A stretch of DNA of 64,000 nucleotides, taken from contig NZ_CADDWI010000013.1 of NCBI RefSeq assembly GCF_902809845.1, forward strand, positions 1 through 64,000. Direction: 5' to 3'. A model generated the notes under the pieces. It was not told where the DNA came from. It did not search any database and worked only from the letters and a program-made list of their open reading frames with translations. Every line of letters starts with the position of its first letter. Position 1 is the stretch's first letter. A program made the translations under genes and the position numbers. The stretch is from Chelativorans sp. Marseille-P2723 (lineage in GTDB: Bacteria; Pseudomonadota; Alphaproteobacteria; Rhizobiales; Rhizobiaceae). Below are positions 21,848 to 64,000 of this stretch, one piece after another.

Positions 21848-21864
21848 AATGGAAAGGGATAAGC

Positions 21865-28513: not shown

Positions 28514-28523
28514 TATTACGGCC

Positions 28524-30240: not shown

Positions 30241-30251
30241 GTTGTAAAAAA

Positions 30252-42713: not shown

Positions 42714-42746
42714 GCCACCACGCTCCCACGTGGGCAGCGTAGCAAT

Positions 42747-44819: not shown

Positions 44820-44825
44820 GCCGGT

Positions 44826-45704: not shown

Positions 45705-45739
45705 ATTCCTCCCTCATCAGCTGCAAGGAGTTCAACGAA

Positions 45740-47426: not shown

Positions 47427-48230
47427 TCAGTGCGTGATCAGACCGCCGTTCAGATTGAATGCCTGTCCCGTAATATAGGCTGCCTCCCCAGAAACGAGAA
47501 AGGCCACCAACGCGGCGACATCATGCGGCGTTCCAAGACGGCCAAGGGGCACCTTTTCCTCAAGCGCTTTGCGAGCGTCCTTCTCCGGACCAACTTCGAG
47601 GTCATAAGCGCGCACAAACGTTTCCGGATACCGTTCCAGCATTTTGGCTGAAAGCGGCGTATCAATGACACTGGGGCAGACGGAGTTAACCCTGATCCCG
47701 TGGTGGGCAAGCTCACGGGCAAATACCTCCGTCAGCCGGATTACACCGGCCTTAGAAACCGCATAAGGGCCAAGCAGCGGAGTGCCAAGCTTGCCGCTGA
47801 TTGATGCAATGTTGACAACATTACCCGCCCAACCGTTCTTTAAGCAGTTGCGGGCGAATTCCTGTGTGCACAGAAAAGAGCTGGTAAGATTGTTAGCTAT
47901 CGAACCGGACCAATGCGTCTCTTCAAGCTCAAGCAGCGATGTTGCAGGGCTTCCGCCGCCTCCCACATTATTAATCAGGATGTTCACACGGTGAAATTCA
48001 TCGATAATCTGACTGAAAACGCGCTGCACATCAGCCTTTATAGTCATGTCGCCTACAAAGCAGGAGAATTCGGCTGTGGCGGAAGATTTCCGAAGATCGA
48101 CCACTGCGACTGTCGCGCCCTCGGACATCAGCCGCCGGGCGATCGCGTTGCCGAGCCCTCCGCCTCCCCCGGTTACCACCGCGACTTGCCCGCTAAGCCG
48201 TTCAACCTTGAACGGGTTGATCTTGTTCAT
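47427..48230 (-). CDS. SDR family oxidoreductase
   Basis: A 267-residue classical SDR with VVTGGGGGLGNAIARRL at the cofactor loop, ILINNVGGGGSP, NIASISGKLG and the catalytic YAVSK, ending in GQAFNLNGGLITH. It is divergent from the tetR gene, and the gap of about 170 bases contains the palindrome TTAACTA-ACGG-TAGTTAA, so it is probably controlled by that repressor. It likely oxidises a hydroxyl, perhaps a 3-hydroxyacyl-CoA, in the pathway of the island. Confidence 0.85.
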   Translation of the reverse strand: MNKINPFKVERLSGQVAVVTGGGGGLGNAIARRLMSEGATVAVVDLRKSSATAEFSCFVGDMTIKADVQRVFSQIIDEFHRVNILINNVGGGGSPATSLLELEETHWSGSIANNLTSSFLCTQEFARNCLKNGWAGNVVNIASISGKLGTPLLGPYAVSKAGVIRLTEVFARELAHHGIRVNSVCPSVIDTPLSAKMLERYPETFVRAYDLEVGPEKDARKALEEKVPLGRLGTPHDVAALVAFLVSGEAAYITGQAFNLNGGLITH

Positions 48231-48287
48231 GGAACACCTTCTTGGGCTTCGCCAGTATATGCGCGCTTGATTTTCCGTCCTAGTTGT

Positions 48288-48305
48288 TTAACTAACGGTA
48301 GTTAA
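48288..48305. promoter_or_regulatory. TetR operator palindrome between SDR and tetR
   Basis: A perfect 7-bp inverted repeat TTAACTA-ACGG-TAGTTAA in the middle of the divergent gap. Its core AACTAACGGTAGTT (48290-48303) fits the pattern AACNANYGNTNGNT also found at 57317-57330, 57340-57353 (one mismatch) and 63662-63675. Confidence 0.7.
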
Positions 48306-48401
48306 CAGTCAAGTGGCAGCTCACTTCGCGGTTCTTTATGGACAGCGCGGACTGACTTTCAGCGGTCAAGCTTGCGAAGCTGCGAGAAGGAAGGTGTTGT
48401 T

Positions 48402-49073
48402 ATGGACAGGCCGCGCGCAAAAAGGGAAACACGACGGAAGACAGCCGCACCTCCCAAGCGCTGGAACGCGGTTGACCGTAAGAAGCATATTATCCTCGAG
48501 GCCGCCCGCCTCTTCGCAATGAAGGGGTTCGATGCCACGTCGATGCGGGAAGTGGCCGGACGTACAGGCGTGCTCGCCGGATCCCTTTATTACTATTTCG
48601 AGTCTAAGGAACAACTCTTCCTCGAAGTACACACCGAGGGGATGAAAGTCCTTTCGAAGAACGTTGATGAAGCAATAAAGGAACTCAGCGACCCGTGGGA
48701 CAAACTTGAGGCAGCTGCAATCGCGCATTGCCGGGCACTTGTCGAGGAACGGGAGATGCTCATGCTCGTGGTGCCTACCCTGCCGGTAACCCTGGCGCCA
48801 TACCGGGAAGAGCTGGTACGGCAGCGCGACGAGTATGAGAAGAAATTTGCGCAGATTATTGCCGAATGTGATCTTCCCGACCGGATTAACCGAGATGTCC
48901 TGCGTCTTCACCTTCTCGGCGCGCTCAATTGGACGCAAGTCTGGTATCGCCCAGGGACGAAGCTGAGCATAGACGAGGTCGCCAGGCAGATAGTCCGGTC
49001 TTTGCAGCCTTGTGCTAACGAGACAACTGCCCTGCCTGAAGCATCCGGCAAGACTGCTGGTAAGACGCATTAA
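48402..49073 (+). CDS. TetR family transcriptional regulator
   Basis: A 223-residue TetR protein. After a basic 30-residue tail, the HTH reads KKHIILEAARLFAMKGFDAT, then SMREVAGRTGVLAGSLYYYF. A C-terminal ligand domain follows, with VVPTLPVTLAPYREELVRQR and LLGALNWTQVWYRPGTKLS. The LNWT.VWYRP segment and overall shape resemble KstR2-type TetR proteins that respond to CoA esters. ATG 48402 follows AAGGAAGG; an upstream TTG would add ten residues. It probably represses its own gene, the divergent SDR and the rest of the island. Confidence 0.88.
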   Translation: MDRPRAKRETRRKTAAPPKRWNAVDRKKHIILEAARLFAMKGFDATSMREVAGRTGVLAGSLYYYFESKEQLFLEVHTEGMKVLSKNVDEAIKELSDPWDKLEAAAIAHCRALVEEREMLMLVVPTLPVTLAPYREELVRQRDEYEKKFAQIIAECDLPDRINRDVLRLHLLGALNWTQVWYRPGTKLSIDEVARQIVRSLQPCANETTALPEASGKTAGKTH

Positions 49074-49199
49074 CAACGAGCTTCCTGTCAACCGCAGCAG
49101 TCATCCCGGCCGCGGCACACCACAGCAGAGGCATCGCAAACGAGCTCGGCGGCTGAAGCTCCCGGTAAAGTCCCTATAGTCCTGTCTGCTGGCAGGCGC

Positions 49200-50021
49200 T
49201 TACGCCGCCTGCCGATGCATCGAAATTCCCCTCGGCACGGCAGCCAGAAGAGCACGTGTATAGGCCGTCTTTGGAGACCGGAATAGCTCGTCCGTACTTC
49301 CCTTCTCAACAAGTTCGCCGCCGCGCATAACTGCCACTTCATCGGCAATATGGCGGACGACAGCCATGTCGTGGCTGATAAACAGGTAAGTCAATCCACG
49401 CTCCTTCTGAATGTCTTTCAGCAGGTTTACAATCTGTGCCTGCACGGAAACATCCAGCGCCGAAACCGCCTCGTCGCAAACCAGCACCTTAGGCTCCAGC
49501 GACAGCGCACGTGCTATTGCTATACGCTGTTTCTGCCCGCCACTGAACTCGTGGGGGAACTTGGAGGCAGCCTTAGCACCCAGTCCCACCGAGTCCAGCA
49601 ATTCCTCCACCCGCATTTTGACGCTGCTCGGGTCCACGATCTTGTGGACAAGCAAGGGCTCAGCGATGATCGACCCCACCCGCTGCCTCGGATTCAGCGA
49701 AGCTGCCGGATCCTGAAACACCATCTGGATCGCGCGCCGTATTTCAAAGTCCCGGAAGGAGGCTTTCGAGAGCCGCTTGCCACAGTAAAATATGTCACCC
49801 TCGGTCGGCTCATAGAGCCCTACGATGCACCGACCCAACGTCGTTTTGCCGGAGCCGGATTCGCCAACAATCGCTAGGGTGGTACCGCTTCTCACGTCGA
49901 GCGATATGTTGGACAGAGCGACAACTGACTTCATGGATCCTGCAAACAGGCCCATACCAGCAGAAAAGATCTTGCCGACATTGGCAATGCGAAGAATAAC
50001 CTGCGGGTCTTCAGCCGACAT
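49200..50021 (-). CDS. Peptide-type ABC transporter ATP-binding protein (DppF-like)
   Basis: A 273-residue ATPase with Walker A GESGSGKTTL, Q-loop MVFQDPAASLNPRQRV, signature SGGQKQRI, Walker B VLVCDEAVSALDVSVQAQ and H-loop ISHDMAVV. Walker B has an Ala-Val where most family members have Pro-Thr, but the catalytic Glu is kept. The oligopeptide C-terminal extension is short. ATG 50021 overlaps the upstream ATPase gene by 11 bases behind AGGAAACA. It is the last gene of the minus-strand transporter operon. Confidence 0.9.
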   Translation of the reverse strand: MSAEDPQVILRIANVGKIFSAGMGLFAGSMKSVVALSNISLDVRSGTTLAIVGESGSGKTTLGRCIVGLYEPTEGDIFYCGKRLSKASFRDFEIRRAIQMVFQDPAASLNPRQRVGSIIAEPLLVHKIVDPSSVKMRVEELLDSVGLGAKAASKFPHEFSGGQKQRIAIARALSLEPKVLVCDEAVSALDVSVQAQIVNLLKDIQKERGLTYLFISHDMAVVRHIADEVAVMRGGELVEKGSTDELFRSPKTAYTRALLAAVPRGISMHRQAA

Positions 50022-51006
50022 TGTTTCCTGCTTCTTTCGATGAATGATTGCTGAACCAGCAAGCCACTGCCCTGCCACTGTCCTCCATTAATGGCTCCCG
50101 CTCCCTGCAAATGCCTTCCGCTCGCGCACAACGCGGATGGTAGGGGCAACCGTTTGGAAGCGCGCCGGGTTGCGGCGGCTGTCCGCCTATCGCGCGGAAG
50201 CGTGTGATCTGCTCTGCGTCGATGTCTGGAACTGCATCGATCAGGTCATTGGTGTAGGGATGACGCGGGGTCTGCACGAGTTGCCCCGTTGAAGCGCTCT
50301 CCACGATCCTCCCGGCATACATGACGCACACCCGGTCACAGTACTCGGCAACGAGATCGAGACTGTGCGAGATGAATATGACGGAGGTTTCCTCCTGCGC
50401 CGTAAGTTCCTGTAGCAGTGCGATGACTTCTGCCTGGACGGTCACGTCGAGCGCAGTTGTCGGCTCGTCGGCGATGAGCAGCTTTGGGCGGCAGGACAGA
50501 GCCATTGCGATCGCCACGCGCTGGCGCATACCGCCGCTTAGCTGATGTGGATAACTGGCTAGCACCTGCGCTGCGCGCGGGACTTTGACCCGTTCGAGAA
50601 GTTCAAGTGCACGCCGGCGCGCATCCGCATGCGTTAGCCCCCGATGATACTCCATGCCATCGGTCAATTGCCGCTCTATCTTGAGAAGCGGATTGAGCGA
50701 CGTCATGGGATCCTGGAACACCATGCCGATTGCCGACCCTCTGATGGGCGCGAGATCCTGAGCTGAAATCGAGGAGATGTCTTGCCCATTGAACAGAATG
50801 CGCCCGCTGCGGATGCTGGCAGCCCGGGGCAGAAGCCGCATGATGGAAAGGGCTGTCATGCTCTTGCCCGACCCGCTCTCACCCACAATCCCAAGGCGCT
50901 CGCCAACATTGAGATGAAAGGATACGCCACGCAGCACATCGAAAGTGCGACCGCCAGCCGAAATCTCGGTGTAAAGGCGGTCGACTTCTATTAGTGGCCT
51001 CGACAT
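50011..51006 (-). CDS. Peptide-type ABC transporter ATP-binding protein (DppD-like)
   Basis: A 331-residue ATPase with Walker [27 protein letters not shown], signature SGGMRQRV, Walker [19 protein letters not shown] and H-loop ISHSLDLV. The C-terminal extension holds [14 protein letters not shown], the Cys-rich DppD/OppD feature. ATG 51006 is preferred over the track-like upstream start at 51042 because the latter adds a basic non-conserved tail. The gene is 109 bases downstream of the double hot-dog gene, which is inserted between the permease and ATPase genes. Confidence 0.9.
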
Positions 51007-51115
51007 TGACTCAGTCGTCAACTGCCTTCTCCTGGCAAACACGTCGCGCTAAGCGAGTTATGGAGCCACAGCCAGTGCTGAGCAGATGTTGCTGCGTGGT
51101 GCTCAGCATCTCTCC

Positions 51116-52207
51116 TCACTTGCTCCTTGCCGTCCAGAGGCGTGATGCCGGACCCACCGGAGCATCTGTCCAGCGCCGGACCGTGAATACGCCTGTGTTG
51201 CGGATGCGGTTCTGGTCATCGACCAGCCAAGCCTCGACGACCACCCGGTCAGGGTCTTCCGTAGGCTTCGAGAAGCCATAGGTGGTCAATACATCGCCCG
51301 GGTTCACCTGACGGCGCTGGATGTGGCGGAACTCCTCGATCCACCCATTCCGGCCGGCCCATGCTACAAGCGGTGCCAGCATCGCAGCTCCCATTTGTGG
51401 ACCGGCAGTGATGGGAACCCCGCCTGGAAAACCGCGCTCCCGGGCGTAATCCCAATCATAATGCGTTTTCGCATAGTCATCGACCGCACCCATCCACTGA
51501 ATCATCGAAGTCCAGGTAATTGGGCCGAGTTCCTGGCGGTAGGCATGTTCTTTCCCGTCGAAGAGGTCGACAACGCTGTCTGGATGATCCCATGCACGCC
51601 TGGGGAGCGTCTTGACCTCGCACCTTGTTTTCTCCGCGAGATCGGGGCCGAAGTCAGGCTTGGGCTGGGGCGACGTGCCCTCGGCATAGATCGTAACCGC
51701 CTTGCGCACGAGATCGCCAACGAGAACGTTGCGCTGGTTGCGGAACTCCCAGATATCCTCAATGAACTTCATGCGGCCCTGGCGGCCCTGTTTCTCGTAC
51801 ACTTTCGAGAGCTCGCAAACCACGGTGATTGTATCGCCGACCGTAATCGGCTCGTAGTAGCGGTAATCGTCGCCCGTATGCAGATGAGCATCATTTTGCT
51901 TCATGACGTCGCCCATGACGTATGTCGTCTCATAGGCACGATAGGTCGGCGTATTGTTCACAAGGTACCAGTAAAAGGGGATTGCGGCGATCGGCTGCAC
52001 CACGTTCCCGTTTGAGAGCTGCTCGGCGCTCGTATGCCATGGCACCGCGCATCCCGATGCATATGCGACCTTCTCGACCGCGCTTTGATCCACCTTAGTC
52101 ATGAAAGGCTCGGAGCGGCGCCCGATATGGCTCTCATCGTAGTCGCTGATCGCAAACTCGGATAGTATGCTTGAGATGCCGGTTAGATCGCGGCCTAGGC
52201 AGTACAT
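51116..52207 (-). CDS. FAS1-like/MaoC double hot-dog dehydratase
   Basis: A 363-residue protein made of two hot-dog domains. The N-terminal part (about 50-200) resembles the FAS1-like dehydratase domain, with HTGDDYRYYEPITVGDTITV. The C-terminal half (about 225-355) is MaoC-like, with LGPITWTSMIQWMGAVDDYA and NPGDVLTTYGF. Such proteins hydrate enoyl-CoA or dehydrate 3-hydroxyacyl-CoA, as in mesaconyl-CoA hydratase or steroid side-chain hydratases. It starts behind AAGGGG. Its insertion between transporter genes ties import to CoA-ester chemistry. The exact substrate is unknown. Confidence 0.75.
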   Translation of the reverse strand: MYCLGRDLTGISSILSEFAISDYDESHIGRRSEPFMTKVDQSAVEKVAYASGCAVPWHTSAEQLSNGNVVQPIAAIPFYWYLVNNTPTYRAYETTYVMGDVMKQNDAHLHTGDDYRYYEPITVGDTITVVCELSKVYEKQGRQGRMKFIEDIWEFRNQRNVLVGDLVRKAVTIYAEGTSPQPKPDFGPDLAEKTRCEVKTLPRRAWDHPDSVVDLFDGKEHAYRQELGPITWTSMIQWMGAVDDYAKTHYDWDYARERGFPGGVPITAGPQMGAAMLAPLVAWAGRNGWIEEFRHIQRRQVNPGDVLTTYGFSKPTEDPDRVVVEAWLVDDQNRIRNTGVFTVRRWTDAPVGPASRLWTARSK

Positions 52208-52243
52208 CGATTTTTTCCCCTTCTCAGGTACATCAGAAAACAG

Positions 52244-53140
52244 TTACCGCAGATGATCCAGTTCCGGATCGAAGCGATCGCGGAGCCAATCCCCAATGAC
52301 GTTGCAGGACAACACCATCAAACCCAGAGCAATAGCTGGCATCACCACGAGGTGAGGTGCGAATGTTATGTAATCACGCGAGTTGGCCAGCATCAGTCCC
52401 CATTCTGGGAGCGGCTCGGGCACACCGAGCCCAAGGAAACTCAACGATGATGCGAGAATAATCGTGTTGCCGATCTGCAGGGAAGCCATAACCAGCAAAG
52501 GTGTGAACACATTGGGCAGGATATGCCTCAACAGAATGCGCCGTTGCGGGAAGCCAGCTATCTCTGCCGCCTTGATGTAATCCAACTCACGAATGTGCAG
52601 CACCTCGCCCCGAACAAGCCTTGCGAAGAAGGCCCAGGTTACCGCGGTCGTCACGAAGATAACGTTGACCACTCCGGCTCCGGTCGCCGCGGCGAGCGCC
52701 AGTCCAAGGACCAACATGGGAATCGCCAGCATTGCGTCGGTTATGCGCATCAGAATTGTATCAATTAATCCCCCGAGGTAACCAGCCAGAAGGCCGATCG
52801 ACGTGCCCACTATGGCGGAGACAAACACTCCCGCTATCGCGATGATGACTGTGATGCGGGCGCCCACGATCAATCGTGAAAGTATGTCACGGCCGAGTTG
52901 ATCGGTGCCAAGCGGATAAGACCAGCTCCCCCCCTCCATCCATACCGGCCGCTTGAGCGCCGTCATCAACGTTCCCGAAAAGGCATCCAGCGGAAGAATA
53001 AGCGGCCCAGCCACTCCTACCAGCACAACTGAGACGAGGAAAATAAAGGCAAGAACAGGAAAATTCCGGCCGCGCAACTTTCTGCGTTCGGTGGTGGGGC
53101 TGCTTTCGGCGCCTTGCCGAATCTGATCGGCCGCTGCCAT
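52244..53140 (-). CDS. Peptide-type ABC transporter permease (DppC-like)
   Basis: A 298-residue permease with the DppC signature YPLGTDQLGRDILSRLIVGAR, the EAA loop DYIKAAEIAGFPQRRILLRH, and SSLSFLGLGVPEPLPEWGLM near the C-terminus. About six helices are expected. ATG 53140 shares a base with the stop of the other permease gene; a GTG one codon upstream is possible. It follows dppB-like in the operon. Confidence 0.92.
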   Translation of the reverse strand: MAAADQIRQGAESSPTTERRKLRGRNFPVLAFIFLVSVVLVGVAGPLILPLDAFSGTLMTALKRPVWMEGGSWSYPLGTDQLGRDILSRLIVGARITVIIAIAGVFVSAIVGTSIGLLAGYLGGLIDTILMRITDAMLAIPMLVLGLALAAATGAGVVNVIFVTTAVTWAFFARLVRGEVLHIRELDYIKAAEIAGFPQRRILLRHILPNVFTPLLVMASLQIGNTIILASSLSFLGLGVPEPLPEWGLMLANSRDYITFAPHLVVMPAIALGLMVLSCNVIGDWLRDRFDPELDHLR

Positions 53141-54066
53141 CACGAACGCCTGGTCAGTACGATGCGGGGATCGACTACGGCGTAAAGTATGTCGGTAAGC
53201 AGGTTCACGAGTATTGCGGTGAACGCGGCAACGATGACTACACCCTGAACGAGGGCATAGTCGCGCGCAAAAGCGCCCTGCACCATCAGAAGTCCGATCC
53301 CCGGCCAGTCGAAAATGGCTTCAGTAATTACTGCTCCGCTTGCGAGGAGCACGAACTGTAATGCCGTCAAGCTCATGATCGTCGTTAACGCATTGGGAAA
53401 AGCATAACGCATGACGATGGTCCACTCGGGTAACCCCTTGGCTCGTGCCACGGTTATGTAGTTGGAATTCAAGGCTTCCAGCATGCTCGAGCGAGCCATG
53501 CGCGTAATCGCCGCCGTCGAGAACCACCCGAGCGTGATTGCGGGCAGAACCAAATGGGAGAAGCTGCCTGTTCCTCCGGAAGGGAAAATTCGGAACTGAA
53601 CCGAAAACACCAGCACGAGGATAACCCCGACCACAAAGGTCGGAATACTCTGGCCTGAAACAGCCAATGTACGTCCAATCCTGTCGATGATGCTACCGGG
53701 CCATCGTGCCGCCATGATCCCTACCGGCAAGCCTACGACCAGCGCGATAAAAATGGCGACGAATGCCAGCAGCAGGCTGTTCGGGGCACGTTCGAGCAAA
53801 AGGTCGGCGACTGGCTGGTTGTAGCGGAAAGAGCGTCCAAGGTCCCCTTGTGCAAGGTTTGCCAGGAAGGTTCCAAGCTGTGACAGGATGTTGCGATCCA
53901 GGCCTAATTGCTGCCGAAGGATTTCACGCTCTGCCGCTGTCGCTTCGACTGGCAACATCGTGTCAATCGGATCGCCCGATATGCGGCTGAGGAAAAACAC
54001 CACGACCGCGACGACTACGAGGCTTACCGCCGATTGCAGGACCCGGAAAGCAATGTACCGTTTCAT
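53140..54066 (-). CDS. Peptide-type ABC transporter permease (DppB-like)
   Basis: A 308-residue permease. The N-terminal helix (VLQSAVSLVVVAVVVFFLSR) precedes a periplasmic EREILRQQLGLDRNIL and DLGRSFRYNQPVADLLLERA, then five more helices. The EAA loop reads NYITVARAKGLPEWTIVMRY. Its start overlaps the acyl-CoA ligase stop (ATGA), so ligase and transporter genes are co-translated. Confidence 0.92.
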   Translation of the reverse strand: MKRYIAFRVLQSAVSLVVVAVVVFFLSRISGDPIDTMLPVEATAAEREILRQQLGLDRNILSQLGTFLANLAQGDLGRSFRYNQPVADLLLERAPNSLLLAFVAIFIALVVGLPVGIMAARWPGSIIDRIGRTLAVSGQSIPTFVVGVILVLVFSVQFRIFPSGGTGSFSHLVLPAITLGWFSTAAITRMARSSMLEALNSNYITVARAKGLPEWTIVMRYAFPNALTTIMSLTALQFVLLASGAVITEAIFDWPGIGLLMVQGAFARDYALVQGVVIVAAFTAILVNLLTDILYAVVDPRIVLTRRS

Positions 54067-55667
54067 GCGCGCTGCCGCTCAGCCACCGTTTCCCTGTCAT
54101 AGGCGTCGGGGCTGAGGCCTGCCTTCACAAGCTTATACTTCTCGATCCTTTCCGTCGGCGTTTTCGGAAATTCATCGATAAACTGAACGTACCGCGGCAC
54201 GGCATATCTCGGTAGCCGTTGCTCGCAGAAGGCGATGAGTTCGGCGGCATCTATCGGAGCGCCCTGGCGCGGAACCACCACCACCCACAGATCGTCCTCT
54301 CCAACTGGCGAGGGATAGGGCAGCACAGCCGATTCCAGAACATGATCATGCGTATTGATGACCTGCTCGACTTCGAAGCAGGACACGTTCTCGCCGCGGC
54401 GCCGGACGCTGTCCTTGATCCTGCCGATGAAATGGATGTAGCCGTTCTCGTCGAGAAATGCCCTATCGCCAGTATGGAACCATAGATTCCGGAAAGCCTC
54501 GGATGTTGCCTCTGGCATTCCCCAGTAATGGATAAAGGTTGCCCACGGCACCTTGGGGCGGACAAGGATTTCACCGGGAGCGCCTGCCGGAACCGGCCGA
54601 TCCAGCTCATCCGCGATCATCACTTCCCGCCTTGGCGAGGGCACACCGCAAGAGCCCTCCACACTTGCCTGAATAGGATTGGAGGAGATGACCCCCATCT
54701 CGCTCATGCCGTACAAATCTACGACCGGAACACCGAACCGCTCCTCCAGCGGACGCTTGAGGCCTTTGGGAATTGGCACGGCGCAAATTACCCGCAGATT
54801 GTGCGATCGATCATTCGGAGATGGTGGCTGCTTCAGCACGAGACCTGCCGCACCAATAAGGAAAGCCGTGGTGATTCCGTATTGCACGACGTCCTTGATA
54901 AAGCCTGACGCACTGAAGGACCGGCGCATATGAACGGGGATGTTTGCAACCATCGCGGCTGCAACCGCCTGACCCTGCGAATGAGCGTGGTAAAGCGGAT
55001 GAGCATCATAAAGAATGTCATCCGGCCCCATCGCAAGAAGCTCTATCGTATCGATGGCAAGACCAAGCAGGTGGCCATAAGGGCAAACGACACCTTTGGA
55101 GGGCCCGGTGGTTCCCGAAGTGTAGATGATCGCTGCGGGATCTGCTATCGTGAGCTCTGCATCCTCATAGCCCTTCCCGTCAGTCGTAACAACGTTACGA
55201 AAGGGAACCACCTGAATATCCCGGTAGGAAGAAACGAGCTCCGCACCCCCGCTCTCCTCGACAACAACGAGCATGCGTAGGGCCTCGGGAAGCTCGATAC
55301 CTGCCAGCAAAGGCAGATATTTCTGCTCCATAACGAGAACACACATCCCGCAATTCTGGATAATGTATTGGAGATGATCGCCCCTTAGCGCGGTATTGAG
55401 CGGGACCTCAATTGCACCGTTACGATTAATGCCGAACCAGGTCGCAATAAAGTTAGGACCATTATCGAGCATGATGCCGACACGGTCATGCTTGCTAACG
55501 CCAGCACCGCGAAGAAAGGCCGCCACCGACCGTGACGCCCTTTCGGCATCGCGGTATGTCAGGCCCTGCCCCTCAAACGAGACGAAGGCCTTATCGGGGT
55601 CAGTCTGTACGCGCCGGGCGAGCAACTGGGGGAGCGGCAGCTCACAATCCTTGATCATGATAGGCAC
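54063..55667 (-). CDS. AMP-dependent acyl-CoA ligase
   Basis: A 534-residue ANL-superfamily enzyme that activates a carboxylic acid to its CoA thioester with ATP. Core motifs are present: AIIYTSGTTGPSKGVVCPYG (A3), VVDLYGMSEMG (A5), WFHTGDRAFLDENGYIHFIG (A7) and the C-terminal FPKTPTERIEKYKLVKAG, which carries the A10-type lysine. It resembles crotonobetaine/carnitine-CoA ligase-type proteins but the acid is not predictable. The displayed start is GTG 55667; ATG 55658 three codons later is equally possible. It is sandwiched between the binding-protein gene (4 bases) and permease genes (overlap), so the imported molecule or its product is probably the acid. Confidence 0.87.
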   Translation of the reverse strand: MPIMIKDCELPLPQLLARRVQTDPDKAFVSFEGQGLTYRDAERASRSVAAFLRGAGVSKHDRVGIMLDNGPNFIATWFGINRNGAIEVPLNTALRGDHLQYIIQNCGMCVLVMEQKYLPLLAGIELPEALRMLVVVEESGGAELVSSYRDIQVVPFRNVVTTDGKGYEDAELTIADPAAIIYTSGTTGPSKGVVCPYGHLLGLAIDTIELLAMGPDDILYDAHPLYHAHSQGQAVAAAMVANIPVHMRRSFSASGFIKDVVQYGITTAFLIGAAGLVLKQPPSPNDRSHNLRVICAVPIPKGLKRPLEERFGVPVVDLYGMSEMGVISSNPIQASVEGSCGVPSPRREVMIADELDRPVPAGAPGEILVRPKVPWATFIHYWGMPEATSEAFRNLWFHTGDRAFLDENGYIHFIGRIKDSVRRRGENVSCFEVEQVINTHDHVLESAVLPYPSPVGEDDLWVVVVPRQGAPIDAAELIAFCEQRLPRYAVPRYVQFIDEFPKTPTERIEKYKLVKAGLSPDAYDRETVAERQRA

Positions 55668-55671
55668 TTAC

Positions 55672-57258
55672 TCACTGGGCAATTTCGACAGCAGCCAGAT
55701 TGCTCGGGTAACCAACGCCCGGAATCGGCTGCCAACTGGCTACGGATTCACCAACGGCGAACAAAGAGTCGGCATAGTAGAGCGGCATGATTGCATTGAT
55801 TTCGGCGGCTCGACGGAGGATGTTCTCAATCAGTTCCTTCCGCTTGTCCGGATCAGGCGTACCAGTCTGATCAATCACCCACTGAGAGAGCTCTTCATCG
55901 CCATGTGGCTGGTTAAATGGCTGCCCCAATACAAAATATGTATGCAGCAAACCGCCCGTGTCTGCCCGAGCGCCAGAACCGGTCGCACCGTAGATGAGCA
56001 CGAGCCGCGGCTGCTGCTTACCTGCTTCATTCCGCGCCTCCGCCAAGGTTTGCGAAATCTCGCGCACGTCCATCTTCACCCTGACCCCGACGGCCTCAAG
56101 ATACTGAGCTATTGCTTGCGCAAAATCGCGCCCCTCCGTCGCCGCAAACAGTGTGATGTCAAATCCGTCGGGATAGCCGGCCTCCGCTAAGAGAGTCTTC
56201 GCGCCTTCCGGGTCGTACTCAACCACGTACTTGCCCGCATCGGCCGGCCAACCAAAGGCAAACGGGAAGCCAAAGACGTGAGCTGCATCACCCTGTCCGA
56301 ACAGCAGATGCTGGACGATAGCCTGACGATCGATGGCCATGCTGAGAGCCTGCCTGACCTCGGGCTTAGCAAACGGGGTGTCGCTCATCATGCCGCCAAT
56401 GATCATATAAACAATGTGCCCCTTCTCGGCAGGCACGACTTTCAACGAAGGGTCTGCCTGTACCTGGGGAATCGCGGGACCAACGATACCAGAGACGATG
56501 TCAGCCTCACCGGACCTTAGCTGAGCCATACGGGCGGCGAGCTCTGGCACGATGCGCAATGAAAGGCGCTCATAGGACGGCGCGCCGTTCCAGTAATCAG
56601 GGTTTGCCTCAAACTCCATATTGCGCCCGAGATCCTGACGAACGAAGCGGAAAGGCCCAGTGCCGATCGGCTTCCTGTTGAACTCTTCCGCACCCACTTT
56701 CGCGATATAATCGCGCGGCACCACATAACCGGCGGCAGTGCCGGGCTCATAAGCAGCAAGATCAAACGGAATTGTCGGCGCACCGGTTTCGCTGCGGATG
56801 ACGATGGTATAATCGTCGACGATATCGACCGACGAGATCATGCTCGCGATCCGCTCCGACGAGGTGGCGGCTGACGGACCGTGCTTGCCGATGTAGCGAT
56901 CTATCGTGAACTTTGCGTCCTCAGCCGTGAAGTCGCTGCCGTCGTGAAACTTCACCCCTTGGCGCAACTTGAACACCCATGACTTGCCATCAGCGTCCAA
57001 AGACCAGGACTCGGCCAGGCCAGGCGCCAGCTCCCCGGTCTGCGGGTCTTTCGTGATAAGGGCATCGAACACCAGCGGATAGTAGGTCGTCTGCCCTGCG
57101 GAGCGGAAGAGCATCGGATCCATGTCCTCGCCATCCACGCTGGCAACCACGACATCCAGCCGCTCCATCTGGGCATATGCCGGATAGGAGAAGGCAACAA
57201 GAGAAGCCGCCGTCAGCGCGATAAACGACTTACCCAAAATTTTACCGAGAAACGTCAC
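55672..57258 (-). CDS. Peptide-type ABC transporter substrate-binding protein (family 5)
   Basis: A 528-residue periplasmic binding protein. GTG 57258 lies 6-8 bases after GGGGAGGGAG and starts a good signal peptide (GKSFIALTAASLVAFSYPAYA); an ATG five codons earlier lies inside that ribosome site. Family 5 markers are ELAPGLAESWSLD, FKLRQGVKFHDGSDFTAED, KPIGTGPFRFVRQD, VRQALSMAIDRQAIVQHLL and LLAEAGYPDGFDITLF. It is the first gene of the operon binding protein-ligase-permeases-dehydratase-ATPases. Despite the peptide-type family, the neighbouring acyl-CoA ligase suggests a non-peptide acid. Confidence 0.9.
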   Translation of the reverse strand: MTFLGKILGKSFIALTAASLVAFSYPAYAQMERLDVVVASVDGEDMDPMLFRSAGQTTYYPLVFDALITKDPQTGELAPGLAESWSLDADGKSWVFKLRQGVKFHDGSDFTAEDAKFTIDRYIGKHGPSAATSSERIASMISSVDIVDDYTIVIRSETGAPTIPFDLAAYEPGTAAGYVVPRDYIAKVGAEEFNRKPIGTGPFRFVRQDLGRNMEFEANPDYWNGAPSYERLSLRIVPELAARMAQLRSGEADIVSGIVGPAIPQVQADPSLKVVPAEKGHIVYMIIGGMMSDTPFAKPEVRQALSMAIDRQAIVQHLLFGQGDAAHVFGFPFAFGWPADAGKYVVEYDPEGAKTLLAEAGYPDGFDITLFAATEGRDFAQAIAQYLEAVGVRVKMDVREISQTLAEARNEAGKQQPRLVLIYGATGSGARADTGGLLHTYFVLGQPFNQPHGDEELSQWVIDQTGTPDPDKRKELIENILRRAAEINAIMPLYYADSLFAVGESVASWQPIPGVGYPSNLAAVEIAQ

Positions 57259-57316
57259 GGACTCCCTCCCCATTACAGAATGCGTTAGCAAAGCTGAACT
57301 TCGCTGAAATTAGTCT

Positions 57317-57353
57317 AACAATCGTTTGCTTGCAAGAGAAACAATCGAAAGTT
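57317..57353. promoter_or_regulatory. Two candidate TetR operators between binding protein and TPP enzyme genes
   Basis: AACAATCGTTTGCT (57317-57330) and AACAATCGAAAGTT (57340-57353) are spaced 23 bases start to start, about two helical turns, in the divergent gap of roughly 156 bases. The first fits AACNANYGNTNGNT, the pattern of the palindrome next to the tetR gene; the second fits except for one position. They could control both flanking transcripts. Confidence 0.6.
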
Positions 57354-57414
57354 AAGCGTAATTTGAAGAGGGATAAGGCACAGCGAGAGACGCTGGAAAA
57401 ATGGGAAACCACGC

Positions 57415-59094
57415 ATGGTAGCAGTGTATGAGGCCATAGCCCGCGCGGTCGAACGGGAGGGCATCGATGCTCACTTTACCCTCATTGGCAACGGCAACAT
57501 GTTTCTCGCCTACGCCCTTGATAAAGGCGGTAAGGTTAAAACTTATCACGCGCGCCACGAGCATTGCGCCGTCGCGATGGCGGAAGGTTACGCCCGGGCG
57601 ACAGGCGGTGCCGGCTTTGCTTCGGTGACTTGTGGAGCAGGCTTCACGCAGATCATGACGGCCCTGACAGCTGCATCCCGCGCATCGGTTCCCATGGTCG
57701 TGTTTGCTGGTGAAGCGCCGATTACGCCCAACTTTCATATACACCGCATCAACCAGAGCATGCTCACGGCTGCAACTGGGGCACATTTCATCACTGCCGA
57801 CACCATGGCGCGGCTGCCTCACGACATCCGGGAAGCGTTCTACATAGCACGAACCCAATCCCGGCCCGTGGTACTGAGCGTGCCGGAGGATTTCCAGCAG
57901 GAGCCGTATCAGGGTCCTGACATCTACACACCTTCGACTGCCCTGACCCTGAAGCTCGAGCCGTTGCCTCCCGGACCAGCCACACTCGCAGAAGTAGCCA
58001 AGTTGCTCCGGTCGGCGCGCCAACCCATCATTATCGCCGGCCGTGGCGCTGTGGAAAGCGACGCAGCCTCAGCGCTTTCACGGCTTGCAGAACTATCGGG
58101 GGCTTTCCTCGCAACGTCCCTGATGGCAAAAGGCCTTTTTGATAGCGACGCGCTGGAAATCGGAATAGCGGGGGGCTTTGCCTCACAAGCGGCCCGGGAA
58201 CTTTATGCGGACGCCGACCTCGTCCTCGCCTTTGGAGCGCGGCTTGGCTACTTCACGACGGACGGTGGTACCTTGTTTCCACGCGCACGCGTCGTGCTAA
58301 TCAATCTGGCTCCGGAGGGCCTTTGGGAAGGCCTTCGGACAGGCGACGTTCATCTTAGGGCAGATGCGAAGCTGACGGCTGAAGCCCTCCTTGAAGAACT
58401 TAAGGACGAACGTTTATGTAAGCCGCTTGATTGGGCCTTGAACTCGGCTAAGGCAGTTCAAGACACAGAACCTGACAACCGCTCCTTTGAAATTCCCCCT
58501 GGCCTTCTTGATCCGCGCATCGTCATGCGTGAGCTTGATGAGGTCGTGCCTAAAGATTGGGATATCGTCTGCGGTGGCTCGCATTTCTTCTATTTCGCAC
58601 TCACCTATTTAAGTGGCAGGCACCCCAAGCGAATACATATCATAAACGAGTTCGGGGCGATCGGTTCTGCCTTCCCAGCCGCAATGGGCGTGGCTGCCGC
58701 ACGCGGCGACGGCAAAGTCCTCCTGATCGAGGGGGATGGTAGCTTCCTGATGCATGCCCAGGAACTGGAGACTGTATCCCGCCATAAGCTGCAGCTTGCG
58801 ATCTGCACGGTCAACGATGGGGGATATGCTTCCGAATTCCACAAGTTCCGCCTCAAAAACATGGATGATTCCATCGCCATGCATGGCCGAGCGAACCTCG
58901 CAGCGATAGCTAAGGGCTTCGGACTAGTTGGAAGGACGGTCAGCACCTATGGTAGCCTTCGCAATGCTCTGGAGGCTTACGAAAATGGGCGGACAGCCGC
59001 TCTATGGGACCTGCAAGTTGCCGATATTCCGGCTCGTCAATTCGCAGAGGTGAACATGAAGCTGGCTGGACCTGGGCCAGGAGGCAAAGTTTGA
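57415..59094 (+). CDS. Thiamine-diphosphate-dependent enzyme (acetolactate synthase-like fold)
   Basis: A 559-residue TPP enzyme of the POX/ALS fold. The N-terminal Pyr domain has VYEAIARAVEREGIDAHFTL, the conserved Glu in YHARHEHCAVAMAEGYARAT, and SVTCGAGFTQIMTALTAA. The central domain follows (residues about 190-330), then the PP domain with NEFGAIGSAFPAAMGVA and the TPP/Mg motif IEGDGSFLMHAQELETVS...CTVNDGG. It is not Xsc or clearly acetolactate synthase; the second subunit is absent. A decarboxylase or C-C lyase on a 2-oxo acid or 2-hydroxyacyl-CoA is plausible from the neighbours. ATG 57415 has only a weak ribosome site. Confidence 0.75.
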   Translation: MVAVYEAIARAVEREGIDAHFTLIGNGNMFLAYALDKGGKVKTYHARHEHCAVAMAEGYARATGGAGFASVTCGAGFTQIMTALTAASRASVPMVVFAGEAPITPNFHIHRINQSMLTAATGAHFITADTMARLPHDIREAFYIARTQSRPVVLSVPEDFQQEPYQGPDIYTPSTALTLKLEPLPPGPATLAEVAKLLRSARQPIIIAGRGAVESDAASALSRLAELSGAFLATSLMAKGLFDSDALEIGIAGGFASQAARELYADADLVLAFGARLGYFTTDGGTLFPRARVVLINLAPEGLWEGLRTGDVHLRADAKLTAEALLEELKDERLCKPLDWALNSAKAVQDTEPDNRSFEIPPGLLDPRIVMRELDEVVPKDWDIVCGGSHFFYFALTYLSGRHPKRIHIINEFGAIGSAFPAAMGVAAARGDGKVLLIEGDGSFLMHAQELETVSRHKLQLAICTVNDGGYASEFHKFRLKNMDDSIAMHGRANLAAIAKGFGLVGRTVSTYGSLRNALEAYENGRTAALWDLQVADIPARQFAEVNMKLAGPGPGGKV

Positions 59095-59125
59095 AACGTT
59101 AAGCGGCAGGCGCTGCCCCGCCTCG

Positions 59126-59911
59126 TCAGCCAGCAAGCCATCCGCCATCAACGACAATCGTTTGGCCAGTCATATAACTGCTTAGCGGGGAGGCAAGGAA
59201 CACGGCCGCTCCGCCCAGTTCCGAGGGAGCCCCGTAGCGGCGCATTGGGATCTTGGCACGCAACCATGAATCGACCTTTGGGTTGCTCCGCATGGTCTCG
59301 GTGATGGCGGTCTCGAAAGTTCCCGGCGCCAGATTGTTCACACGCACGCCGCGCGATGCCCAATCAAGTGCTAAAGCCCGCGTCATGATCTCCACGCCTC
59401 CTTTAGCAGCACAATAAGCGACGCCCCTTTCGATTCCGACGATACCCGAGACTGAAGAAATATTGATTATGCTGCCCGACCCGCGCTCCAGCATGCGCCG
59501 TCCAAAAGCCATGCAGCAGAGGAAAACGCCGGTCAGGTTGACGCTAATGATCTCGTTCCAGAAAGCGAGGTCTGTATTTTCGGCCCGCGGCGCGGGAGGG
59601 CTGATGCCGGCGTTATTGACAAGCACATCAATGCGGCCGAATTCACTTGCGATCCATTCGTCCAGTGCGGCAATGGAATCGGGTTGGCTTACATTAAGCT
59701 GACGGTAGCTGACTTTTCCTGCGTTGGGAAACATCTGAGCCGCCGCCTTCAGTCTTTCCTCGTCGCGGCCCGCTATAACAACCCTGGCATCATGTTCGAC
59801 CAAGGCTTGCGCAATTGCCAGACCAATACCGCGCCCGCCTCCAGTAACGACGGCTACCATCCCCTTGAGAGAGAAATCCGCGATCCTTTGCGTTGTCATA
59901 CCCGGTTCCAT
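59126..59911 (-). CDS. SDR family oxidoreductase
   Basis: A 261-residue SDR with [40 protein letters not shown] and the catalytic tyrosine-lysine in VAYCAAKGG, ending [12 protein letters not shown] 59911 follows GGAAGGGG; an upstream start at 59959 would add a non-conserved tail. It converges with the TPP-enzyme gene and lies 153 bases downstream of the oxidoreductase gene on the same strand, so it may be cotranscribed with it. The substrate is unknown. Confidence 0.85.
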
Positions 59912-60064
59912 TTGCAGCCCCTTCCAACTTACTGCCCATGTCGCGATAGGTCGCCTCATTCAACGAACAGCGGGCGACCGCCTCTGGAGAGACGAGGAGA
60001 TCGCAGAACAGCGCCGATTTTTTTGGCTACGACATTCCCACCGATGAGCCTTCCGTGGCGCAGC

Positions 60065-63000
60065 TTAAGCGGCCCGGCCGACTACCGGCGCTTCTGCTTC
60101 AGGCATCGGCGCAGCAACCCCGAGTTCTGCCTTTGCCGCGGAAAGCCTGACGGAATATGTTTTCACCGCGTCCAGCTTGACATCCTCATAGCCGCGCACG
60201 ATGTCTGGGAGTTCTGCCATCTTTACTATGGCTGCATGATTTTCGGTCGACAGCACACCCAGCGCGGCCTCGATTACCTCCCGATATTCCTTCATCAAAG
60301 CACGCTCCGTCCGGCGAACTTCGCCAATGCCGAAGAAGTCGAACGGTCCTCCCCGCAGACGCTTCATTCCACGAACGATGCGCAGCAGCGGCGCAAGCCA
60401 CGATCCGAACTTTACTTTGTTCTTGACGCCAAGAGAGCGTAGAAATGTGGGGTGAAGATGCCAGTAATAGCGGACACCCTTACCGAACATCTCCTCAATC
60501 TCCCCGTTATCACGTTGAGCGAGAAGGAGACGCGCCACTTCGTATTCATCCTTGTAGGCCATGAACTTATAAAGGTATCGAGCCACCGCCTCGGTCAATC
60601 GCGTGCTGCCTGGAACAACGTCCTGCTCAACGCTCAGGACCTTGCCGACGAATTCCGCGTAGCTGCGCGCATAGCGGAGGTTCTGGTAAGCTTCCAGCTC
60701 AGCAACCCTGATCTGCAGCAAACGCTTGAGTTCGCCGGTCGCGGCGGTGGCGTCGACAATCCGCTGAACCTCTGCACTCGGGATCAGCGTGGCCTCGGGC
60801 TTTCCGCTCCGCTCCTCCATCAATGCGTTCAGCCGGGCAGGGTCGGCAACGCTCAGCCGACCAAGGCGGAACGCCAGTAGGTTCATTTCGACTGCTGCCC
60901 CGTTGAGACGTATTGCTTGGGCTATTGCCTCTTCCGAGAGCGGAAGCCTGCCCGTCTGGTAAGCAGCGCCGATGACAATCATGTTGCCGGCCATGTGATC
61001 GCCTATCAGAGTCGCTGCTATCCGTTGCGCGTCGAGATACACATTATCGCTGGCACGGGTGGACTTCTCGATGCGCCGTCGAAGCAGAGTCTGGTCAGGA
61101 TAGCGCGTATTGATGTCGGCTACCATGCGCCCCGTCGGCACCTTGCTCATGGAAACGACGGCCACTGTGCCTTCAGGGCTGGTCTTTGCAAGATTTGCGG
61201 CATCAACTCCGACAAGTGGATCGAAGACCAGGTACAGATCGGCGCTTCCAGCCGACAGGGTGTTGGAGCGGGCTACATCGCCATCACGGAATAATTGCAT
61301 CTCGGAGACAACCGGGCCTGCCTTCTGGCTGAAACCGGTGAGATCGAGTCCGCGAACGTTAAAGCCGTCAATGACGGCCGCCGTGCATAATATCTGATTG
61401 GCAGTCACCACGCCCGTTCCGCCTATGCCGCACATGCGCAGTCCGAAAGTTTCTCCGGATGAGTGCGGAACCGGATCGGGTAATTTGTCGTCGAACCTTA
61501 TAGCAGGTCGGCTCGCCGGCTGTTTTGCGACCGCCCCTTCTACGGTCAAGAACGAAGGACAATCGCCACGGATACAAGAAAAGTCCTTGTTGCAGGAAGA
61601 CTGCTCGATCTGCGTTTTCCGGCCGAATTCCGTTTCGACCGGCTGCACGCTCAGGCAGTTCGACTTACGGCCGCAATCACCACAGCCCTCGCAGACACGT
61701 TCGTTTATGAGAATCGACTTCTCCGGCGCAGCGAGCTTACCTCTTTTGCGCAACCGCCGCTTTTCCGCGGCACATTGCTGATCGTGAATGAGAACTGTGA
61801 CGCCCGGAACCTTCGCCAGCTCCTTTTCTACCTCGAGAATCTCGCCGCGGGGCCGGACCGAAGCCGAGGCCGGCAGAGAGACACCCTTGTAGCGACTAAT
61901 GTCATCTGTAGTGATGACGATCCGTCTGACGCCCTCGGCGTCGAGCATGCGAACGATCTGTTCGACCGTCATGCCTCCCTGAATGGACTGGCCGCCGGTC
62001 ATCGAGATCGCTTGATTGTAGAGCAGCTTGTAAGTGATGTTAGCGCCTGAAGAGATGGCAAAGCGGATTGCGAGACTGCCGGAATGGGTAAAGGTACCGT
62101 CGCCCAGGTTCTGGAAAAAGTGCTGATGTTCCGTGTAAGGAGATAAGCCGACGAACTGCGCGCCTTCACCACCCATCTGGGTGTAGCCGATGACGTTGCC
62201 AAAATTCTCCTTGCCCATATAGAGCGCCATGACATGGCAGCCGATACCCGCGCCGACGATCGCACCGTCCGGCGCAACCAGCGATGTGCTGTGCGGGCAA
62301 CCGGAACAGAAATAGGGTGCGCGGGCCGTCGATAGCTGAATAGGCTGCTGGCGGTTCTTGTCCAGGAACTCAATGCGGCGGGCTGCGGATGGGAGTTCAA
62401 AACGACGCTGTAGCCGCTTTGCCAACGCTCTGGCGATAAGATCAGCATCAAGATCGCCAAATGCCTGAACTAAGGTCGTCCCATCCTCCTCGGACTTGCC
62501 CACCACTATCGGGCGATGCGGCCCCGAATAGAGAGCCTCCTTGATGAAGGCCTCCAGAAACGACCGCTTTTCCTCGATGACAATGATCTCTTCCAGCCCC
62601 TCGGCGAATTCGTCGATCGTCCGCTGGTCAAGCGGGAAGAGCATCCTAACCTGCAGCAGCCGAATGCCGAGTCGCTTCAGTTCCGATTCGTCCAATCCCA
62701 GATCGCGCAATGCCTGCCGCAAGTCGAAATAGGTCTTTCCGGCAGCAACGATGCCAATCTTCGCATCCGGTACATCATAAACAATGCGGTTCAACTTGTT
62801 CTCGTAGCCGTAGCGACGAGCTATTTCGAGACGCGCATAATGCAGATCGCGTTCCGCGTCGCGCATCGGCGCCCCAGCCTCGTTCAAACGCAAGACAGGC
62901 TTGTAGGGGCGGCCATCCAATTCCACGGACGGGATGATCGGCACGATGCGGTCAGGGCTCACAAGAGCGGTGCCGGCACTATCAGCGAGGCTTGCCACAA

Positions 63001-63613
63001 TCTTGAAGCCAACCCATAATCCTGCCGCGCGCGACAACGCATAACCATGCAGACCGAGATCGATGATTTCCTGAACGTCTCCCGGAAACAGGAGCGGCAT
63101 CTTCAAGTCAACGAACATGCCGTTGGAGTCGGAAGGGAACATGGAGGAGTTGGGTTGGGGGTCGTCCCCCGCCACCACCAGCACCCCGCCCTTTTCGGCT
63201 GTGCCGCGTATGTTGCCGTGCCGCAACGCATCGGCAGACCGGTCAACCCCCGGAGCCTTGCCGAACCACATCGCATAGACGCCGTCATACTTAGCCTTAT
63301 CGACGGCCTGCACCATCTGGGAACCCCACAGCGCCGTTGCGGCAAGGTCCTCATTGAGTCCGGGGAGAAGGCGCACATGATGCTCCTCCAGCAGCTTAGT
63401 ACGCCGGTTCAGCTCAATATCGAAGCCGCCGATCGGAGAGCCGGGATAGCCGGAAATAAGTCCCGCAGTGTTTAGACCACGTCGCTGGTCTGTGCGGCGC
63501 TGATCGAGCGCAAGCCGTACCAGCGCCTGGATGCCAGTGAGGTAGATCGGCCCCTGCTCTGTGATGAAGCGATCTTCAAGGGAAAATTGTCTGGGCGGCT
63601 GGGCGATGGTCAT
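60065..63613 (-). CDS. Indolepyruvate ferredoxin oxidoreductase family protein (fused IorA/IorB)
   Basis: A 1182-residue single-chain 2-oxo acid oxidoreductase. It opens FSLEDRFITEQGPIYLTGIQ, with GYPGSPIGGFD and GLNEDLAATALWG in the first TPP-associated domain. The middle contains YFCSGCPHSTSLVAPDGAIVGAG and IGYTQMGGEGAQFVG, and a Cys-rich region with CEGCGDCGRKSNC...CNKDFSCIRGDC for iron-sulfur clusters. The C-terminal gamma-type domain has MCGIGGTGVVTANQIL, followed by a long tail. It oxidatively decarboxylates aryl- or branched 2-oxo acids to acyl-CoA in relatives. ATG 63613 follows GGAGAGG. A candidate TetR site lies 49 bases upstream. It may be induced with the rest of the island. Confidence 0.9.
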   Translation of the reverse strand: MTIAQPPRQFSLEDRFITEQGPIYLTGIQALVRLALDQRRTDQRRGLNTAGLISGYPGSPIGGFDIELNRRTKLLEEHHVRLLPGLNEDLAATALWGSQMVQAVDKAKYDGVYAMWFGKAPGVDRSADALRHGNIRGTAEKGGVLVVAGDDPQPNSSMFPSDSNGMFVDLKMPLLFPGDVQEIIDLGLHGYALSRAAGLWVGFKIVASLADSAGTALVSPDRIVPIIPSVELDGRPYKPVLRLNEAGAPMRDAERDLHYARLEIARRYGYENKLNRIVYDVPDAKIGIVAAGKTYFDLRQALRDLGLDESELKRLGIRLLQVRMLFPLDQRTIDEFAEGLEEIIVIEEKRSFLEAFIKEALYSGPHRPIVVGKSEEDGTTLVQAFGDLDADLIARALAKRLQRRFELPSAARRIEFLDKNRQQPIQLSTARAPYFCSGCPHSTSLVAPDGAIVGAGIGCHVMALYMGKENFGNVIGYTQMGGEGAQFVGLSPYTEHQHFFQNLGDGTFTHSGSLAIRFAISSGANITYKLLYNQAISMTGGQSIQGGMTVEQIVRMLDAEGVRRIVITTDDISRYKGVSLPASASVRPRGEILEVEKELAKVPGVTVLIHDQQCAAEKRRLRKRGKLAAPEKSILINERVCEGCGDCGRKSNCLSVQPVETEFGRKTQIEQSSCNKDFSCIRGDCPSFLTVEGAVAKQPASRPAIRFDDKLPDPVPHSSGETFGLRMCGIGGTGVVTANQILCTAAVIDGFNVRGLDLTGFSQKAGPVVSEMQLFRDGDVARSNTLSAGSADLYLVFDPLVGVDAANLAKTSPEGTVAVVSMSKVPTGRMVADINTRYPDQTLLRRRIEKSTRASDNVYLDAQRIAATLIGDHMAGNMIVIGAAYQTGRLPLSEEAIAQAIRLNGAAVEMNLLAFRLGRLSVADPARLNALMEERSGKPEATLIPSAEVQRIVDATAATGELKRLLQIRVAELEAYQNLRYARSYAEFVGKVLSVEQDVVPGSTRLTEAVARYLYKFMAYKDEYEVARLLLAQRDNGEIEEMFGKGVRYYWHLHPTFLRSLGVKNKVKFGSWLAPLLRIVRGMKRLRGGPFDFFGIGEVRRTERALMKEYREVIEAALGVLSTENHAAIVKMAELPDIVRGYEDVKLDAVKTYSVRLSAAKAELGVAAPMPEAEAPVVGRAA

Positions 63614-63661
63614 GGCACCTCTCCTATTAGGGACGCAACAGCGCGCGCGCCCATCGTACAC

Positions 63662-63675
63662 AACAAATGTTTGGT
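63662..63675. promoter_or_regulatory. Candidate TetR operator upstream of oxidoreductase gene
   Basis: AACAAATGTTTGGT matches AACNANYGNTNGNT. The flanking TTGCAA also follows the site at 57317, giving a longer shared stretch AACAA-NN-GTTTG-S-TTGCAA. It lies 49 bases before the start codon of the minus-strand oxidoreductase gene, and its separation from the MaoC-like gene implies a promoter here. Confidence 0.55.
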
Positions 63676-63749
63676 TGCAAATGATGAGTCAGAGAGCCGG
63701 CTTGTGCCTCCCGCGCGATGCCGATGACACCATCGACCCTCAGGCGTAC

Positions 63750-64000
63750 TCAGCTTGTTTCACGGCGCCTGATCAGGATGGCCGCCCCCGTCCGCAGCAC
63801 CACGGTTCCATCTTCCTTCACAGCCTCAAGCTCCCAGCTAGCAATTCCCCTGTCCGGCTTGGATTTTGATTCACGCTTCTCCGTCCACGTCGCCATAAGC
63901 CGTATAGGCGTGTCGGGCACAGTGGGCGCCGGCAGTTCAATCCCGTGAAATTTAAGTGCAGCTATCACCTGGCATTCTTTCGCAGCTCGAGCGAAGATGC
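63750..64000 (-). CDS. MaoC-like hot-dog protein, partial (C-terminal end)
   Basis: The minus-strand frame entering from the right edge is open to its stop at 63750 and covers at least 82 codons. The C-terminal end reads HGIELPAPTVPDTPIRLMAT, then WTEKRESKSKPDRGIASWELE and VVLRTGAAILIRR, the last strands of a MaoC/(R)-hydratase hot-dog fold. An internal GTG at 63968 is not needed because the frame continues beyond the window. It is probably an enoyl-CoA hydratase or 3-hydroxyacyl-CoA dehydratase of the same catabolic island, on the oxidoreductase strand. The N-terminus is outside the window. Confidence 0.65.
   Translation of the reverse strand, partial: IFARAAKECQVIAALKFHGIELPAPTVPDTPIRLMATWTEKRESKSKPDRGIASWELEAVKEDGTVVLRTGAAILIRRRETS

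Follow-up and report, generated by a model that had tools for sequence, protein, structure and literature searches.

The oestrogen-degradation cluster edc of Novosphingobium/Caenibius tardaugens encodes EdcC, a fused indolepyruvate-type ferredoxin oxidoreductase (IOR), and as far as the accessible text of the reports describes it, EdcC is combined there with an acyl-coenzyme A (CoA) dehydrogenase, two MaoC genes and the TetR repressor EdcR (PMC7793797, PMC8700777; also PMC12507874, PMC8281962). It has been proposed that EdcC decarboxylates a free 2-oxo acid and attaches CoA in one step, according to the same partial text (PMC7793797). A second described system is azeTSLR for azelaic acid uptake and degradation in Phycobacter, for which the accessible part of the report gives a tripartite ATP-independent periplasmic (TRAP) importer, an acyl-CoA ligase and beta-oxidation genes that are induced together (PMC10945470). 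Here we describe an island of genes in a window of 64,000 bp, being bases 1-64000 of the 1.36 Mb contig NZ_CADDWI010000013.1 (C13) of Chelativorans sp. Marseille-P2723, which probably imports and breaks down organic acids as one coordinated system of known enzyme types.

By gene content the edc cluster appears to be the nearest precedent for this island, as both have a fused IOR, an acyl-CoA dehydrogenase, two MaoC genes and a TetR regulator, and feed, or in the island would feed, beta-oxidation. The accessible text describes TetR-repressed divergent operons for edc, whereas the TetR control proposed for the island is read from a shared site only. The island also differs in that the shared genes are scattered over several operons, that ATP-binding cassette (ABC) and TRAP importers, three ligases and a thiamine diphosphate (ThDP)-dependent enzyme are added, that the operator is different, and that its TetR protein has a TetR_C_24 rather than the TetR_C_11 domain of edc. 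The joint presence of IOR, acyl-CoA dehydrogenase, MaoC hydratases and TetR as in the available edc reports (PMC7793797, PMC8700777) would fit an oestrogen/steroid-like or polycyclic ring module, in which a meta-cleavage product would be the substrate of the IOR, as it is for EdcC, before beta-oxidation, but we consider this quite improbable: the genes scanned from 47.4 to 90.9 kb include no recognisable ring dioxygenase, P450/monooxygenase or TonB receptor, the ABC and TRAP importers are unlike EdcT, and the EdcR operator pattern TnnCnnTACnAnTnGTAnnGnnA at ≤2 mismatches is absent from the window and from contig 78-98 kb, with two matches in contig 60-80 kb which are both inside FadJ and none at the island promoters. 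The azeTSLR system shares the TRAP importer, acyl-CoA ligase and beta-oxidation genes with the island, but has an IclR regulator, and the accessible text makes no mention of an IOR, ThDP enzyme or oligopeptide (Opp) importer. No paper describing the gene set was found in the open-access literature, in agreement with the sequence-only reading, which knew of no described pathway.

The gene calls were checked by Pfam and NCBIfam profile cut-offs, and the profiles bore out the arrangement given by the sequence-only reading: an importer operon enclosing a ligase and a dehydratase, a divergent ThDP (TPP) enzyme, a short-chain dehydrogenase (SDR), a fused IOR and a MaoC-like gene. The importer operon runs on the minus strand from 57291 to 49200 in the order solute-binding protein (SBP_bac_5), acyl-CoA ligase ACS1, OppB, OppC, the dehydratase-like protein HD, OppD and OppF, with genes that overlap or adjoin (biggest intergenic gap 73 bases), and has all parts of an oligopeptide/dipeptide ABC importer (a family 5 SBP with a pair each of permeases and ATPases, in a single operon). 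To the right of the divergent ThDP enzyme lies a second minus-strand set, SDR3, MaoC-like gene, fused IOR and SDR2, while at the left end SDR1 diverges from a TetR gene (48372-49073) which had been omitted from the sequence-only reading, with an operator-like site at 48290 between the two. We consider it rather probable that the window holds the left half of a single TetR regulon of about 36 kb (C13, approximately 47.4-83.7 kb) for acid catabolism via CoA thioesters, and the shared predicted sites suggest that TetR most likely acts through the palindrome AACWAWCGWTWGTT to repress four promoter regions.

When the intergenic regions were compared, the promoters of SDR1/TetR, SBP/ThDP and SDR3/ligase 2 proved to share related palindromic words. 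The palindrome AACWAWCGWTWGTT from these three island promoters is found at ≤1 mismatch just five times in the genome (3.77 Mb), always on C13 (48290, 57317, 57340, 65151 and 83704, spanning 48290-83717), and the fifth, about 80 bp upstream of the TRAP binding-protein gene DctP 2, was outside the motif-defining set. When the three promoters were searched for shared words without a preset motif, with shuffled promoter sets as null, the best shared 14-mer was AACAATCGTTAGTT, and an equally good word was obtained in 0/500 shuffles at k=14, 0/500 at k=16 and 14/500 at k=12, compared to 65/200 and 200/200 for two control sets at k=14, which are thus at chance. With a fourth promoter, picked because the site was already present there, 0/300 shuffles were as good at each of four word lengths. 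Within the window there are four matches at ≤2 mismatches versus a shuffle average of 0.73 (2/100 shuffles reach four), and a search of 47-84 kb with the SDR1/TetR palindrome alone (AACTAACGGTAGTT, ≤3 mismatches) gave five matches including itself, of which four are intergenic (intergenic DNA being 9.9% of the sequence). No match at ≤1 mismatch to the palindrome was found in 1.18 Mb around 74 ThDP enzyme relatives.

Outside this genome, the site is present at ≤2 mismatches upstream of 7/22 TetR homologues, versus 3.6% of 5000 random control stretches, which were drawn from the same loci and so include true sites; among the 22 upstream stretches L187 and L191 show the same two neighbouring genes, and one stretch is 156 bases long. 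The homologues at 45% identity and one at 44% carry a site, and another at 44% does not. The closest homologue found (48%) is on plasmid pOT1-1 of Haematobacter massiliensis, where a related palindrome was seen by eye, and this locus resembles the island in its TetR (48%), thiolase (66%), FadJ (44%) and acyl-CoA dehydrogenase (55%), and in having CoA ligases and a TRAP importer nearby, but contains no match to the IOR, ThDP enzyme, FAS1_DH protein or Opp genes in 36.5 kb. As the thiolase-FadJ-dehydrogenase combination is found there and recurs with a MaoC gene on Novosphingobium plasmid pSA2, the beta-oxidation core looks like a recurring module, and the left-hand genes do not.

Several results weigh against a single regulon. 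The site is missing at ≤2 mismatches from 15/22 TetR upstream stretches, including that of the closest homologue, and the search with the SDR1/TetR palindrome alone also had one match inside SDR2, with shuffles giving a mean of 1.17 and a maximum of five. The reversed-pattern control occurs in four places genome-wide, which makes the rarity of the motif weak as an argument by itself, and it is therefore the clustering of sites rather than their number that carries weight. The ThDP enzyme scores below all family cut-offs, and its structure comparison does not separate the subfamilies. Conserved co-occurrence, proposed in the sequence-only reading as its own refuting check, was not found either: the full gene set is absent from every neighbourhood examined, these being 3 to 45 kb rather than whole genomes, and none of 98 loci of at least 9 kb outside this genome holds HD, or a TPP enzyme joined to IOR or ACS1. 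That comparison used 20 island markers (at least 35% identity, 60% coverage), of which two or more are present in 7/98 loci, including L037 of Reyranella soli with three Opp genes and a ThDP relative. In the loci of the 74 ThDP relatives (3 to 22 kb each, with a large number ending at contig ends; matches counted at ≥40% query coverage) there was no match to IOR, HD or TetR and a weak one to ACS1 in 2/74, and no close relative of HD was found. One sequence set, first listed as n=38, left out five entries (L024, L025, L051, L058 and L082). From the lack of co-occurrence elsewhere we therefore argue for a locally assembled regulon, and not for an absence of co-function here.

The same absence of a shared set, together with the chance sites of the reversed pattern, would fit independent catabolic operons that are adjacent by chance, with the palindrome coincidental or belonging to one or two of the operons; in addition, intergenic DNA is where an AT-rich motif is more to be expected. 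We nevertheless regard this as unlikely, given that none of the 500 shuffled promoter sets matched the shared word at k=14 with both control sets at chance, that all five sites fall inside the 36-kb span, and that sites also precede TetR homologues elsewhere.

The single TetR regulon that we favour supports the earlier view of one acid-catabolism unit by its shared operator-like site, although the unit runs past position 64000 and includes a beta-oxidation core that had not been seen. The next 20 kb contain ligase 2, TRAP importer 1, acyl-CoA dehydrogenase, FadJ, a thiolase that scores above the PRK08242 cut-off, an MBL-fold protein, TRAP importer 2, an epimerase-like gene, ligase 3 and a second DctP, as well as two small genes of 159 and 154 aa, with a Pfam match to MaoC for the 159-aa gene only. 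The beta-oxidation genes are on the same strand after the TRAP 2-ligase 3 promoter. In the proposed mechanism, TetR would repress the promoters of SDR1/TetR and of the importer operon/ThDP enzyme, the promoter region between the MaoC-IOR-SDR2 operon and the ligase 2-TRAP 1-MaoC-like genes, and the TRAP 2-ligase 3 promoter, and would be released by an acyl-CoA intermediate. Each of the three importers has a CoA ligase of its own next to it; these pairs may take up and activate related acids, and the resulting acyl-CoAs would enter the beta-oxidation core via acyl-CoA dehydrogenase, MaoC-type hydratases and FadJ, an SDR or FadJ dehydrogenase, and thiolase. A second entry may start with an SDR making 2-oxo acids from 2-hydroxy acids, which the IOR would convert to acyl-CoA and CO2 with reduction of ferredoxin, while the ThDP enzyme may cleave or decarboxylate a 2-oxo acid or 2-hydroxyacyl-CoA, with the aldehyde released after Glu474 protonates the carbanion.

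Any particular order of these steps is held with clearly less confidence than the regulon itself. The single-file order from ligation to oxidation suggested earlier has become weaker, since an IOR of the EdcC type is proposed, in the accessible text, to attach CoA itself (PMC7793797). Because the IOR makes the thioester itself, it is more likely that ligase and IOR are parallel entries into one acyl-CoA pool than sequential steps. Tentatively, the island may be an undescribed type of regulon, in which one TetR, three importer-ligase modules, an aerobic IOR and a re-modelled ThDP enzyme place an alpha-oxidation-like chain shortening by way of 2-oxo acids beside beta-oxidation of the same substrate family. 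The single TetR regulon would turn orphan enzymes into a defined regulon with predicted repressor, operator sites and boundaries, and would allow a search for the substrate by asking what releases one TetR protein.

The IOR exceeds the full-length family cut-off (NF009589/PRK13030, 1451.4 vs 816 bits), and from its sequence is predicted to act as a 2-oxo acid:ferredoxin oxidoreductase. Its identity to fused IORs in 67/100 other related genomes and 29/346 others of the class (counts made with different E-value limits) is at most 46%, compared with approximately 50% to plasmid-borne IORs of Novosphingobium, Rhodococcus and Streptomyces. A quick 65-row tree places it with five rows from the plasmid collection at 100% SH-aLRT (approximate likelihood ratio test) support, set apart from the other 59 rows, among which is the second IOR copy of the genome; the five were chosen from the best listed of 159 plasmid records with an IOR match, the other plasmid IORs being unplaced. 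The exact place of the window IOR is unsure, as the sister row L154 has a long branch, and one of the five, the Tsukamurella IOR, adjoins recA and may be chromosomal. The five are classed as accessory-type IORs, and the island is apparently a second context, next to oestrogen degradation, in which a fused 2-oxo acid:ferredoxin oxidoreductase serves accessory catabolism.

The ThDP enzyme was aligned with 74 relatives out of 88 loci, after removal of duplicates, of sequences with a stop and of those with 480 or fewer aligned residues, and its active site is unlike that of all 74. Residue E474, at the position of the carbanion-protonating Glu, is common to 74/74, whereas H110 is a Gln in 74/74; in addition His replaces Tyr at 108, and Asn replaces Asp at 26, which we take to be the position of Asp27 in pyruvate decarboxylase (PDC). 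In 2-oxo acid decarboxylases of PDC/indolepyruvate type the corresponding pair is Glu473 and His114 (Table 1 of PMC13327070). Together E474 and H110 match this pair, with N26 in place of the family Asp and no family score over cut-off. A route in which the ThDP enzyme splits a 2-hydroxyacyl-CoA into an aldehyde or ketone and formyl-CoA, like the 2-hydroxyacyl-CoA lyase AcHACL, draws on the shared pyruvate-oxidase-family ThDP fold and on the protonating Glu493 aligned with E474, but seems unlikely to us: AcHACL is about 25% identical and has Gln128 where the window enzyme has H110, the AcHACL-type model NF058623 scores 150.9 bits versus a cut-off of 600, and none of the scanned genes was recognised as encoding a formyl-CoA enzyme. 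An assignment as acetolactate synthase was rejected (TIGR00118, 221.9 vs 538 bits).

On contig 7 of the same genome (344942-345487, L006) a 187-aa frame matches the ThDP enzyme in the C-terminal third of the latter only (51% identity), and appears to be a partial second copy. Two ThDP relatives on roseobacter plasmids (L174 and L175, 44%) have TcuAB, 4-oxalomesaconate tautomerase and tricarboxylate transporter genes as neighbours, which hints at polycarboxylate 2-oxo acids as substrates of other branches of the family. The HD protein had been called a double hot-dog dehydratase; its first half passes as hot-dog (PF13452, 55.9 bits vs 22), while the second is below cut-off (PF01575, 20.7 vs 27 bits; predicted fold with a predicted local distance difference test (pLDDT) score of 34.6), and a double hot-dog remains the likely fold.

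Table. Genes and operator-like sites of the island, in numbering common to window and contig C13
Feature	Position	Strand	Remarks
SDR1, NAD(P)-dependent short-chain dehydrogenase	47427..48230	-	PF13561/PF00106; TGxxxGLG and YxxxK present
Operator-like palindrome AACTAACGGTAGTT	48290..48303	.	SDR1/TetR intergenic
TetR-family regulator (TetR_N + TetR_C_24)	48372..49073	+	PF00440, PF17932
OppF/DppF-like ATPase	49200..50078	-	PF00005; PRK11308 below cut-off
OppD-like ATPase	50011..51042	-	PF00005 + PF08352
HD, 363-aa FAS1_DH/MaoC dehydratase-like protein	51116..52207	-	D244...H249 motif
OppC-like permease	52244..53143	-	PF00528
OppB-like permease	53140..54066	-	PF00528, PF19300
ACS1, AMP-forming acyl-CoA ligase	54063..55667	-	nearest NCBIfam PRK06155, 491 bits vs cut-off 722
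Solute-binding protein family 5 (SBP_bac_5)	55672..57291	-	PF00496; importer operon gene 1
Operator-like site	57317..57330	.	SBP/ThDP-enzyme divergent promoter
Second operator-like site	57340..57353	.	same SBP/ThDP-enzyme divergent promoter
ThDP enzyme (TPP), pyruvate-oxidase family	57415..59094	+	E49, GDG...ND cofactor motifs, E474, H110
SDR2, short-chain dehydrogenase	59126..59959	-	PF13561
Fused indolepyruvate-type ferredoxin oxidoreductase (IOR)	60065..63661	-	PRK13030 1451.4 bits vs cut-off 816
Weaker operator-like site, 2 mismatches	63662..63675	.	directly upstream of IOR
MaoC-like hydratase, 167 aa	contig 63750-64253	-	PF01575; in window 63750..64000, C-terminal part only
SDR3, short SDR	contig 64868-64269	-	heads MaoC-like/IOR/SDR2 set

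SDR3 is 199 aa long and matches the first 173/295 positions of its best NCBIfam model, and may be truncated. Directly past the last operator-like site, contig 83938-90904 (L161:5938-12904) contains two SDRs, a TRAP importer, a third SDR and an APH-family phosphotransferase, a set without its own operator-like site at ≤2 mismatches. On the other side of the island, the genes at 41250-46876 form a taurine/sulfonate-type unit without an operator-like site, consisting of a GntR/aminotransferase regulator, which we assume to be TauR-like, the sulfoacetaldehyde acetyltransferase Xsc (TIGR03457, over cut-off), phosphate acetyltransferase and citrate synthase. Further to the left are a gene of DNA polymerase III alpha type (1109 aa), preceded by two genes that lack a Pfam match at 1e-10 (35262-41018), together presumably resembling an imuA-imuB-dnaE2 mutasome, and at 19125-24194 a diol/glycerol dehydratase whose large and medium subunits share one open reading frame (768 aa), along with an aldehyde dehydrogenase at 22719. 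Finally, propionyl-CoA carboxylase-type carboxyltransferase and biotin subunits, a methylmalonyl-CoA mutase and a ScfR short-chain acyl-CoA regulator are encoded at 24369-31664, a propionyl-CoA route which could take products of the island.

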